Shown: positions 14,210-17,758 of the stretch, one piece after another
Numbering within the stretch: position 1 is the first letter of the stretch
Layout: every line of letters begins with the position of its first letter
NCBI GenBank assembly: GCA_947306495.1
Contig: CAMZGT010000004.1
Coordinates: 1 to 64,000 of the forward strand
Direction: 5' to 3'
Source: an uncultured Acinetobacter sp.
GTDB lineage: Bacteria; Cyanobacteriota; Vampirovibrionia; Gastranaerophilales; Gastranaerophilaceae
DNA: 64,000 bases
Program-made: the position numbers and the translations under genes
The notes under the pieces: model-generated
The model's input: the letters and a program-made list of their open reading frames with translations, nothing else
Database searches by the model: none
Told to the model about the DNA's origin: nothing

Positions 14210-15097
14210 TTAGAAAAGCGCATTAGTAAATCCTGTTGTAATTACAGAAATATTGAACTTATCTGCAGCAGAAAGTATTTCTCTTGTAACAGACGGAACA
14301 ATGATAAGTCCGACTCGTCCCTGCGCAGCAACATTAACGTCATGAAGTGTTAACGGCAAATCTGACGCTAAAATCGCATCTTTTGACCTTTCACATGAAT
14401 AGTCCAGTGCATACTCAACAGAGGCTGAATGAAGCCCTTGAGCAATTGCATTTGTTTTTAGATCTTTTGCAATAACTATTGCTTGAGAAAGCGTATGCTT
14501 AGCAACTTTCCAAGCGAATACAGCGTCCTCTATTTGTTCAACAGTAGGTTTTACTTTAGATACAACCTTAAAAGAATCTTTATTTAAATCCGATAAATTT
14601 GGTGCTTGCGTAAGTGTTCCCAACGGAGTTTCTTTAATTTCATTTGACAAGTATTTTTTGTAATCTTTCATAGGAGTTTTAATTGTTACATAACCTATTT
14701 CATGCGTATTCAAATATTCAAGTGCATTTTTTGTAAAATTTGGTGCAACAACCAAATTTGTATTTTTAAGCATTTTAACAATCTCACTGTCAACTTCTTT
14801 TGACAGAGTTATTGTTGATGATAAAAAATCTATAGGATTTGAATCTATAACACTCATCAAAGCCTCTTCCTGCATTTTACCCAAACTTACGGCACAAATT
14901 CCTATAGCATTAGTTGAGGCAACTGAGATAACATCATAGAATTCACTTATAACATTTAATCCGTGAGTAATACTAATAATCTCAGAATAACTCAAATTTC
15001 GACTTGACTCATAGTCTATAGTTCTGTCATTTTCTTCAAAACAAGCATTCTGAAAATTATTGACACCAACAGACACTTTAATATCATTTACTTTCAT
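14210..15097 (-). CDS. degenerate AICAR-transformylase-like protein (PurH C-terminal domain only)
   Basis: A 295-residue protein that follows the C-terminal AICARFT domain of PurH from end to end but lacks the IMP cyclohydrolase domain. Matching segments are NLSYSEI (PurH LSYNN), VVSKVKPTVEQIEDAVFAWKVAKH (shown in part), SQAIVIAKD and ILASDLPLTLHD. Catalytic positions are lost: the KHANPCG-type Lys-His pair is Ala-Ser at about 60-61 (ASTNAIG), the SNAIV asparagine is Gln, GAGQMSR is changed, and the C-terminal RHFRH is absent. It therefore probably lacks transformylase activity. GAGAGGAA precedes the ATG. It lies 15 bp after the PBP1A gene, which suggests co-transcription. The present role is unknown. 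Confidence 0.7.
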   Translation of the reverse strand: MKVNDIKVSVGVNNFQNACFEENDRTIDYESSRNLSYSEIISITHGLNVISEFYDVISVASTNAIGICAVSLGKMQEEALMSVIDSNPIDFLSSTITLSKEVDSEIVKMLKNTNLVVAPNFTKNALEYLNTHEIGYVTIKTPMKDYKKYLSNEIKETPLGTLTQAPNLSDLNKDSFKVVSKVKPTVEQIEDAVFAWKVAKHTLSQAIVIAKDLKTNAIAQGLHSASVEYALDYSCERSKDAILASDLPLTLHDVNVAAQGRVGLIIVPSVTREILSAADKFNISVITTGFTNALF

Positions 15098-15112: not shown

Positions 15113-17254
15113 TTACTGTCCAACCGGTGCTGAAGTTAGAGGAATTGGCGCATAATTTGCCTGCGCCGGTTCAATCCTTTCTTGTTTAACCTCAACAGTC
15201 GGAATGTCCTTCTTTTTTACAAGCGGTAGTGTTTGTTGAATAATTTCAGCAGGATTAACAGAATCCGGTTTTATTATTTCATTATCCTCATCTTTTGATG
15301 ATTTATCTTCATCTTCTTCAAAAGACTTTTTCGCATCATTCTGATTAATAACCTTCACTCCTGATGCTTTAAAAGGATTTAATATAACTTCAGGATACTC
15401 AAAATCTGAATTTGCATATGGTTCAGTCGCCACAAGCATTACATCTCGCCAAATTTGCGCGGGGATTGTACCTCCTGTAATCCCTCCCATTTTCGAGTTA
15501 TCATCATTTCCAACCCATACACCTGTTACAATATCAGGAGTAAAACCGATAAAATATGCGTCTTTACTATCATCTGTAGTTCCGGTTTTACCTGCAGCAG
15601 GTTTTCCTATATTTGCAGCCCTGCCGGTTCCGCTTGTTATAACGGTTTTCATAATAGCTGTCATTGTCGCAGCAGTATTTATATTTAAAACTTTGCTCGT
15701 TCTTGCTTTTTTAGCTTCATACAATACAGTTCCCCTTGAAGATTCTATCCTTTCAATGGCATAAGGTTCCACTTTATAACCTCCGTTTGCAAAAACGCCG
15801 AACGCTCTTGTCATTTCATAAAGTTTAACACTGTTTGACCCCAAAGCAATCGTGTAATCAAAAGGTATAGGGGTTGATATGCCCATAACTCTTGCAAGTT
15901 GAATAACCGGCCTTACGCCTATTTCATCCATAAGTCTCGCTGCGCATACATTTGAAGATACCATTAAAGCTGTATACAACGGTATTTTCCCTCTGTATTT
16001 ATTACCGTAGTTTCTCGGCGTCCAATTACCGATTTTAACCGGCATATCATCCAACATATCATTTGGAGAAAATCCTTTTTCTATGGCAGCCGTATAGATA
16101 AAAGGCTTAAATGCCGAACCTGACGGTCTTTGAGATTGCGTGACCCTATCATATTGACTCTTTGTATAGTCTTTACCTCCAGCATAAACCAATATTCTGC
16201 CATCTATTGGTGAAAATGAGAATACCGCAGCTTGGTTTATGTCTTTATTCATCCCCCAAGCATTAAGATTTTTAATTATAGCCTCATTCGCTTTTATTTG
16301 AGCTTTATAATCAAGAGTTGTTATAATCTTATAACCGCCGTTAACGATATCGTCTTCCGAGAATCCTAATTTTTGTAATTCTTTCATAACGTAATCACAA
16401 AAATATGGAGCTTTGTTTGTTGCGTACATAACAGGCATTGTCGAAAGCTTTATCGGCTCTTTTTTAGCTTTTTCATAGGTTTCTTTGTTGATATACCTCA
16501 TTTTGTACATTCTTAATAAAACTTGATTCCTGCGTTTTTCAGCAAGTTTTATATTGTTATATGGAGAATATACAGAAGGTGCTTGAGGCAAACCTGCAAT
16601 TAAAGCCATCTCCGGCAAAGTTAATTCATTTAAATTTTTATTAAAATATATTCTTGCAGCACCTTTTACTCCATATGCACCTGAACCCAAATATACGTTA
16701 TTCAAATACATTTCCAAAATTTTGTCCTTGGAAATAGTTTTTTCAATCTGAGCAGCAACTTGCAGTTCTTTGATTTTTCTAGTAAAAGTTCTTTCGTTCG
16801 ACAAGAACAAAATTCTTGATAATTGCTGAGTTATTGTGCTCGCACCTTGCACAACCTTACCTGCAAGAGCATTTGCAACCATAGAACGCACAAGACCAAA
16901 CATGTCATAACCTGAATGTTTATAAAAATTCTTATCTTCGGTAGCAATGAGTGCTTTAACCAATTGTTCCGGCACTTCTTTTAACTCTACATTAGAATAT
17001 GTATATGCAGCAAAAGTTTTGATAATTTGACCGTCACCTGCACAAAAAGTTGTTACAATATTGGGTTTAAGTGAATTTAAATTTTTAATCGGAGGCAATG
17101 ACATCAAATAGAGCTTGAAAGCTATCATGCCTGCCAACACTACGCCAAGAGCAAATACAACTGCCGTTGTAATAAATCCGACAGCAGGATTGTCCACATT
17201 AACCCTCTTGTAACTTCCTCTCTTCCTATTTCTAGGAATACTGTAATTTCCCAT
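15113..17254 (-). CDS. class A penicillin-binding protein (PBP1A type)
   Basis: A bifunctional peptidoglycan synthase of 713 residues. A transmembrane segment (about 25-50) is followed by a GT51 glycosyltransferase domain with EDKNFYKHSGYD, GASTITQQL and KILEMYLNNVYLG. The transpeptidase domain has SAFK with the nucleophile near 381, SSN, and KTGTTDD near 555. A proline/acidic tail of about 90 residues follows the last motif. AAGGAG precedes the ATG. It is followed after 15 bp by the PurH-like gene. It polymerises and cross-links glycan strands at the outer face of the inner membrane. Confidence 0.95.
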   Translation of the reverse strand: MGNYSIPRNRKRGSYKRVNVDNPAVGFITTAVVFALGVVLAGMIAFKLYLMSLPPIKNLNSLKPNIVTTFCAGDGQIIKTFAAYTYSNVELKEVPEQLVKALIATEDKNFYKHSGYDMFGLVRSMVANALAGKVVQGASTITQQLSRILFLSNERTFTRKIKELQVAAQIEKTISKDKILEMYLNNVYLGSGAYGVKGAARIYFNKNLNELTLPEMALIAGLPQAPSVYSPYNNIKLAEKRRNQVLLRMYKMRYINKETYEKAKKEPIKLSTMPVMYATNKAPYFCDYVMKELQKLGFSEDDIVNGGYKIITTLDYKAQIKANEAIIKNLNAWGMNKDINQAAVFSFSPIDGRILVYAGGKDYTKSQYDRVTQSQRPSGSAFKPFIYTAAIEKGFSPNDMLDDMPVKIGNWTPRNYGNKYRGKIPLYTALMVSSNVCAARLMDEIGVRPVIQLARVMGISTPIPFDYTIALGSNSVKLYEMTRAFGVFANGGYKVEPYAIERIESSRGTVLYEAKKARTSKVLNINTAATMTAIMKTVITSGTGRAANIGKPAAGKTGTTDDSKDAYFIGFTPDIVTGVWVGNDDNSKMGGITGGTIPAQIWRDVMLVATEPYANSDFEYPEVILNPFKASGVKVINQNDAKKSFEEDEDKSSKDEDNEIIKPDSVNPAEIIQQTLPLVKKKDIPTVEVKQERIEPAQANYAPIPLTSAPVGQ

Positions 17255-17365: not shown

Positions 17366-17758
17366 ATGTTAAGTTTTTTGACAATTTTAAAAAATGAAAT
17401 ATTGTCATACTTTGTTCCCGAAAGAATGGAGTATAAAATTACAGGTAAATGCTTAAAATGCGGGAAATGCTGTCGTTATATGTACAGCTTTGACACTTAT
17501 ACGACTACTGACTTTAAAATTATGCAATTCTTGTTTCCTTCATACAGAAGATTTTATATAAGAGGAAAAGATGAAGAAGGAAACCTCGTTTTTGCTTGTA
17601 AATACGTTACAGATGAAGGCTTATGCTCAGTTTATGATAAAAGGTTGAGAATGTGCCGAAACTATCCCGCAAAAAAAATCACGTACCAAGGAAAATTACA
17701 TGAAGGATGCGGGTATAAGATTGAAGACAAAAGTTTTAAAACATATTTAAAGAAGTAA
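17366..17758 (+). CDS. YkgJ-type CxxCxxCC cysteine-cluster protein
   Basis: A 130-residue protein with the motif CLKCGKCC (about 29-36) followed by further cysteines in FACKYVTDEGLCSVYDKR and MCRNYPA and a last one in EGCGY. This spacing is that of the YkgJ/UPF0153 family, thought to bind zinc or an iron-sulfur cluster; the physiological function is unknown. It has no signal peptide. No Shine-Dalgarno is clear before the ATG. It lies divergent from PBP1A and upstream of tyrS, with a separate transcript likely. A second family member lies at 38817-39275. Confidence 0.8.
   Translation: MLSFLTILKNEILSYFVPERMEYKITGKCLKCGKCCRYMYSFDTYTTTDFKIMQFLFPSYRRFYIRGKDEEGNLVFACKYVTDEGLCSVYDKRLRMCRNYPAKKITYQGKLHEGCGYKIEDKSFKTYLKK

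Follow-up and report, generated by a model that had tools for sequence, protein, structure and literature searches.

A predicted PurH-derived pseudoenzyme retained under purifying selection in gut Gastranaerophilales

PurH (ATIC in humans; Pfam PF01808) is a bifunctional enzyme that joins an N-terminal IMP cyclohydrolase (IMPCH) half to a C-terminal AICAR transformylase (AICARFT) half. Histidine synthesis releases AICAR as a by-product. According to the available part of Brown et al. 2011 (PMC3261824), the last two purine steps are expected to accompany the histidine pathway; the same text describes archaeal stand-alone PurH1 domains, i.e. AICARFT without IMPCH, which keep the AICAR-contacting residues (with one Asp to Glu exchange) and have PurO or PurN as partners. 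A use of PurH other than catalysis is known from MRDF of Methanosarcina acetivorans, a PurH-aEF2 complex that dimerises 50S subunits (PMC12605026, PDB 9ou7). As far as the accessible text of that paper goes, both PurH halves touch the 50S subunit, dimerisation goes through the N-terminal half and the active sites are empty, and the accessible text of PMC13324472 states that PurH-mediated 50S dimerisation has so far been observed in methanogens only. For Gastranaerophilales or Melainabacteria, we found no report of a degenerate PurH in the open-licence literature; in the portion of PMC5877343 at hand, partial amino-acid pathways of a termite-gut member are mentioned and PurH is not.

Here we describe a PurH relative encoded in the window, i.e. 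the whole 64,000-nucleotide stretch of DNA that was analysed. On the minus strand (14210..15097), an open reading frame with an ATG start encodes a protein of 295 aa which, based on profile matches and a structure model, is predicted to be a PurH-derived pseudoenzyme consisting of the AICARFT half only. The host is a gut Gastranaerophilales bacterium, many relatives of which come from rumen and gut, and its genome assembly comprises 1.65 Mb on 60 contigs (91.6% complete). Since the gene is carried by 33 of the 34 genomes of the window's genus, a chance ORF can be set aside. Against PF01808 the protein scores 97.9 bits (cut-off 25) over profile positions 81-300 of 311, which makes it a PurH homologue, whereas it stays far under the cut-offs of the PurH equivalog models TIGR00355 (95.7 vs 528 bits) and NF002049 (103.3 vs 402 bits). 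The closest structure to its AlphaFold model (pLDDT 92.7, pTM 0.90) is PurH of M. tuberculosis (3zzm_B; Z 34.0, rmsd 2.0, 286 residues), the match being confined to the AICARFT half; human ATIC (1pkx) reaches Z 30.3, and the next different fold is LpxI, with Z 13.8 over 114 residues. The IMPCH half is absent from the protein by profile search and was not found in its genome by an IMPCH query either. A preliminary description of this DNA had recognised a PurH-like AICARFT domain without IMPCH, and the profile match and the structure prediction confirm it.

Residue losses were defined against 28 intact relatives, in all of which the catalytic Lys and His, the Asn of the SNAIV motif and the tail Arg are invariant. 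Alignment with intact relatives places Asn-Ala (codons 63-64; 14906..14911, minus strand as for all positions in this paragraph) at the catalytic Lys-His pair, i.e. K266>Asn63 and H267>Ala64 in human numbering, and Gln at the SNAIV Asn (codon 205, 14483..14485; N431>Gln205). The RHFRH tail is replaced by TNALF (codons 291-295, 14213..14227; R588>Thr291, H589>Asn292) and the AICAR-binding Arg-Tyr by Ser-Val (codons 9-10, 15068..15073; R207>Ser9, Y208>Val10). For some of these active-site positions, we use what we take to be the human numbering. The numbering of the others and the list of AICAR-contacting residues follow the available part of PMC3261824. The Gln, the missing tail and the missing IMPCH half had been noted correctly before, whereas the Lys-His pair had been read as Ala-Ser, which is a few columns off. 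In relatives the pair is Thr-Pro or Ser-Gly, and across the degenerate genera K, R, N, T, S, G, P and further residues occur in the two columns. Conservation is highest in codons 183-200 (14498..14551; KPTVEQIEDAVFAWKVAK), where 13 of 18 columns are invariant among 51 aligned sequences, and 24 positions are fixed throughout the degenerate and canonical proteins. Five further positions, Gly>Gln220 and His>Asn292 among them, are common to the degenerate proteins yet unlike canonical PurH, as might be expected if the cytidine-deaminase-like fold now carried another reaction. Since the degenerate genera share no single set of polar residues at the former active site, however, we regard such a neofunctionalised enzyme as quite unlikely. 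Judged by its sequence, the window protein is a predicted pseudoenzyme: an enzyme homologue whose conserved catalytic motifs are gone and which is under selection.

The loss of residues goes along with a loss of the pathway. The window protein is the sole PF01808 match in its genome, so there is no second PurH, and profile searches found no purC, hisF or hisD there; purF gave a 19-bit fragment match only. Without purC and without the histidine pathway, the genome has no AICAR source. At the curated cut-off, purF was detected in none of the 34 genomes of the window's genus (G000 included). Most of the purF matches in this genus are N-terminal and lie in ORFs of about 610-640 aa, which we take to be typical of GlmS. 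A 483-aa ORF in G015 (contig C41:3461-4630) has a below-cut-off purF match of 188.8 bits that is unique in the genus. Across the order, purC is present in 15 of 192 genomes, two of them in the window's family, and most of this gut Gastranaerophilales family lacks de novo purine synthesis as judged by purC. PurO, the alternative IMP cyclohydrolase, was found in none of the 192 genomes. We also considered a separately encoded IMPCH as a substitute and rejected it on the IMPCH query, which was negative in all 13 short-PurH genomes tested and positive in four of four full-length controls. According to the preliminary description, the absence of a second purH might mean that this protein is the active enzyme with a different mechanism. 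A second purH is indeed absent, but with the entire pathway gone this does not imply that the protein is the active enzyme. That it serves the organism as a functional PurH through an altered mechanism is hardly credible: no other PurH exists in the genome, but neither do an AICAR source, an IMPCH or a PurO.

Next, we compared PurH across the order. A PF01808 protein was present in 188 of 192 genomes, and rpoB, which served as dropout control, in 181. The PurH proteins of the order form a series of INTERMEDIATES, comprising intact, eroded, IMPCH-less and residue-less forms. Intact proteins measure ~500-540 aa. In genera g18, g25, g27 and g29, 11 full-length proteins are damaged at both active sites; of their IMPCH residues, K66 has been deleted or exchanged for N, E, D or A, and Y104 exchanged for C, R, K or P; all 11 proteins retain K137, and 9 of 11 retain D125. 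IMPCH-less proteins of 308-349 aa with varied residue loss occur in g20-g24, g26, g28 and parts of g18, g30, g33 and g36. The ~295-aa class, which has lost nearly all catalytic and AICAR-binding residues, comprises the window's genus and its relatives. The short forms of g30 retain K, H, N and the tail Arg-His in seven of seven proteins, so the loss of IMPCH can come first. Our search for relatives of the window locus yielded 94 loci, 80 of which were kept, and the fetched loci represent 80 of the 188 genomes in which PF01808 was matched. Every truncation among the retrieved loci took the N-terminal half and left the C-terminal half, with no case of the reverse.

The state of PurH follows the histidine pathway. 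Above cut-off, hisF was detected in 54 and hisD in 55 of the 192 genomes (the same set plus G051). Intact PurH occurs in 51 of the 55 genomes with histidine genes (his+) and in 4 of the 137 without (his-), leaving 133 his- genomes without an intact form. Within the family alone (170 genomes), 31 his+ genomes have intact PurH and two do not, against 4 and 133 of the his- genomes. Even within the mixed genera g30, g33 and g36 (32 genomes) the pattern recurs, with 15 his+ intact, 15 his- short, one his- eroded (G163) and one his+ short (G200). The association is strong on raw counts that ignore shared ancestry (Fisher p 8.6e-37), and the tree-based counts given below are the fairer evidence. The four his+ genomes without intact PurH are G035 and G037, in which none was found, and G193 and G200, in which it is short; the four his- genomes counted as intact are G120, G145, G209 and G163, the last being eroded.

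Several of these exceptions are worth describing, and those of g32, G200 and G193 speak against the explanation favoured below. In both genomes of genus g32 (G120 and G145; loci L125 and L128), neither hisF nor hisD nor purC was detected, although the bifunctional PurH is intact. In G200 (L151, g30), histidine genes accompany an IMPCH-less PurH and no PurO, so that no known enzyme would be left to process formylated AICAR. G193 (L175, g22) carries hisD and hisF on one contig (C10) together with a degenerate PurH and is nested among his-less relatives. Its hisD scores 570 bits, the highest of the 192 genomes (at most 496 in the others), and its his operon was probably regained horizontally. In G209 (L138, g45), purC is present and PurH, which falls outside the family clade, is split over two neighbouring reading frames; it is a probable case of transfer or contamination.

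In order to count the losses, two trees were used: an rpoB tree of 80 genomes, for which the length label of g19, g31, g37 and g44 was set to 300 by assumption, their matches not being among those listed, and a PurH tree built from 94 sequences, namely those of the window, L003, L021, the 80 fetched loci and 11 of the 58 loci L032-L089. By Dollo count, the rpoB tree contains 12 clades with IMPCH loss, one of which also holds G209, set aside here; the PurH tree contains 13 IMPCH-less clades, or 12 without G209. Short forms sit with the intact forms of their own genus, i.e. g36 in g36, g33 in g33 and g30 within or beside g30, and this nesting indicates that the changes were vertical and local. 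The genus nodes of these three have supports of 91-100 in both trees, and some inner nodes are weak (43-67). Dollo counting puts the deletions of the IMPCH half at about 12, a number that may be too high at poorly supported nodes (g30, g20-g27). At least six losses are well supported, namely g36, g33, g30, g18, g24 versus g25, and the clade with g1 and g23. A count of 17 histidine losses on the rpoB tree was set aside, because regain is forbidden there and G193 probably regained its operon.

To assess constraint, dN/dS was estimated by NG86 on the AICARFT part for pairs with dS of 0.15-1.8; dS medians lie near 1.5, so the values are rough. Over all groups with usable pairs, median dN/dS ranged between 0.035 and 0.232. 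Intact PurH showed 0.161 (63 pairs), and the full-length proteins showed 0.070 in g18 (3 pairs) and 0.232 in g25/g27/g29 (2 pairs). Short forms gave 0.051 in g30 (9 pairs), 0.035 in g36 (1 pair), 0.141 in g33 (7 pairs) and 0.207 in g20-g28 and g46 (26 pairs). The remaining medians were 0.231 for PurH of g23 (2 pairs), 0.046 for L084-L088 (7 pairs) and 0.172 for the ~295-aa class (416 pairs); g35, the short forms of g18 and the his-less intact group yielded no usable pairs. In the window's lineage the gene is less constrained than its PBP1A neighbour (0.164 vs 0.089 on the same 158 pairs, with dS near saturation). The AICARFT half is under purifying selection. The earlier proposal of a retained fold without chemistry is thus borne out, and the relaxed selection that would have indicated a pseudogene was not seen. 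A decaying pseudogene caught before removal could account for the missing catalytic residues and the missing domain, and for the absence of PurH from two his-less genomes (G079 and G154), in which the gene was not found even with a family-specific profile and may therefore be dispensable. Nevertheless, the open frame, dN/dS far below 1 across many genera and a PurH-like gene kept in 135 of 137 his-less genomes (including the four counted as intact) make decay very improbable, and selection comes close to refuting it.

The gene neighbourhood differs between lineages. Located 15 nt upstream of the PurH remnant, at operon-like spacing, is a PBP1A-family gene (15113..17254, minus strand), which is a neighbour in this lineage only. 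It is present upstream in 56 of the 58 ~295-aa loci L032-L089, the two others being L046, which starts at a contig edge, and L043, a true exception, and at none of the 22 loci L090-L111 of other genera. Beside PBP1A in the window (17366-17758) lies a gene for a putative metal-chelating CxxCxxCC protein, conserved in most loci of the lineage (71-94% identity, tblastn). In several genera, an MFS transporter (cluster c10, 36 loci) follows intact and short PurH, and dCMP-deaminase and fliE genes occur near purH in some genera other than the window's. Cluster c2 (55 loci) is an unknown gene divergent from purH in other genera; this family of ~208 aa (L106:8591-9217 and 54 further loci) has no Pfam match above cut-off. 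A conserved operon partner was rejected, as the neighbours change by lineage. Since PurH persists where its neighbours change, PBP1A is not what explains its retention, and the suggested regulation of cell-wall synthesis finds no support in a linkage confined to one lineage.

The preliminary description had also proposed a sensor of AICAR/ZMP, which is not supported in view of the loss of the AICAR-contacting residues and of a genome without purC, hisD or hisF and with only a fragment match to purF. A more general small-molecule sensor, whose emptied pocket would recognise a folate or a nucleotide and control a partner protein or gene, would fit the retained fold and the 24 fixed positions. 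We consider it unlikely, given the missing AICAR contacts and AICAR source, the neighbours that differ by lineage, and the fact that neither the window nor the surroundings of purH in 10 relatives yielded a purine or ZTP riboswitch. The scan for regulatory RNAs in these regions returned tRNAs and one L10 leader only, and the promoter scan was near chance (21 found vs 15.5 expected).

Taken together, the reading that we favour with moderate confidence is that the protein is a remnant of a bifunctional PurH, inherited vertically, which lost catalysis in parallel with its relatives and whose AICARFT half is kept for a function other than catalysis. Most of the family lacks purC, so where the histidine pathway persists, this pathway is the remaining source of AICAR. 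Where it too is gone, PurH has lost the IMPCH half, the catalytic residues or both, repeatedly and in parallel, and the AICARFT half has stayed as a protein under purifying selection. Near-universal retention, often without catalytic residues, suggests a non-enzymatic second job of PurH, and it is from retention alone that we infer it. Such a function would need neither AICAR nor formyl transfer nor IMP cyclisation. Our guess is a scaffold, probably dimeric, or a partner of another macromolecule rather than a small-molecule sensor. Whether PurH of this family already had an important non-enzymatic role borne by the AICARFT half before catalysis was lost, for example on the ribosome, is a tentative suggestion that we hold to be possible, though not probable.

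If this explanation is true, these genomes represent a natural experiment exposing a hidden second function of a very widespread metabolic enzyme, left bare in dozens of species by the parallel loss of purine and histidine synthesis. Pseudoenzymes are known; in this case, an enzyme of core metabolism seems to have been inactivated in many parallel events, with the protein retained in nearly all of them. The retained dead PurH would separate a non-catalytic role from the chemistry without mutant work. As a caution, such genes in gut genomes should not be annotated as purine-biosynthesis enzymes.

Compared with the described systems, the window protein resembles PurH/ATIC in the fold of the C-terminal half and by common descent in the PurH tree, but lacks the IMPCH half and the catalytic and AICAR-binding residues. 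With the archaeal PurH1 domains, as described in the available part of PMC3261824, it shares AICARFT without IMPCH; in contrast to them, it has lost both the residues and the pathway. With MRDF, whose active sites are empty as far as the accessible text of PMC12605026 tells, it would share the non-enzymatic use of a PurH homologue. MRDF, however, uses full-length PurH dimerised via the N-terminal half, and the window protein, which lacks this half, falls outside that system. A ribosome-associated factor of this type could be envisaged by analogy, since PurH is seen in the 50S dimer of PDB 9ou7 and its C-terminal half also touches the 50S subunit with empty active sites. It is nonetheless improbable here, considering the missing dimer-making half, the observation of dimerisation in methanogens only, as stated in the available part of PMC13324472, and an ordinary HPF in 33 of the 34 genomes of the window's genus, which leaves no visible gap in ordinary hibernation. 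The PurH-aEF2 complex, the only non-enzymatic PurH precedent that we found, may by analogy serve as a lead rather than as a group to which the window protein belongs, and it would direct a search for partners of the retained AICARFT half to the translation machinery first.
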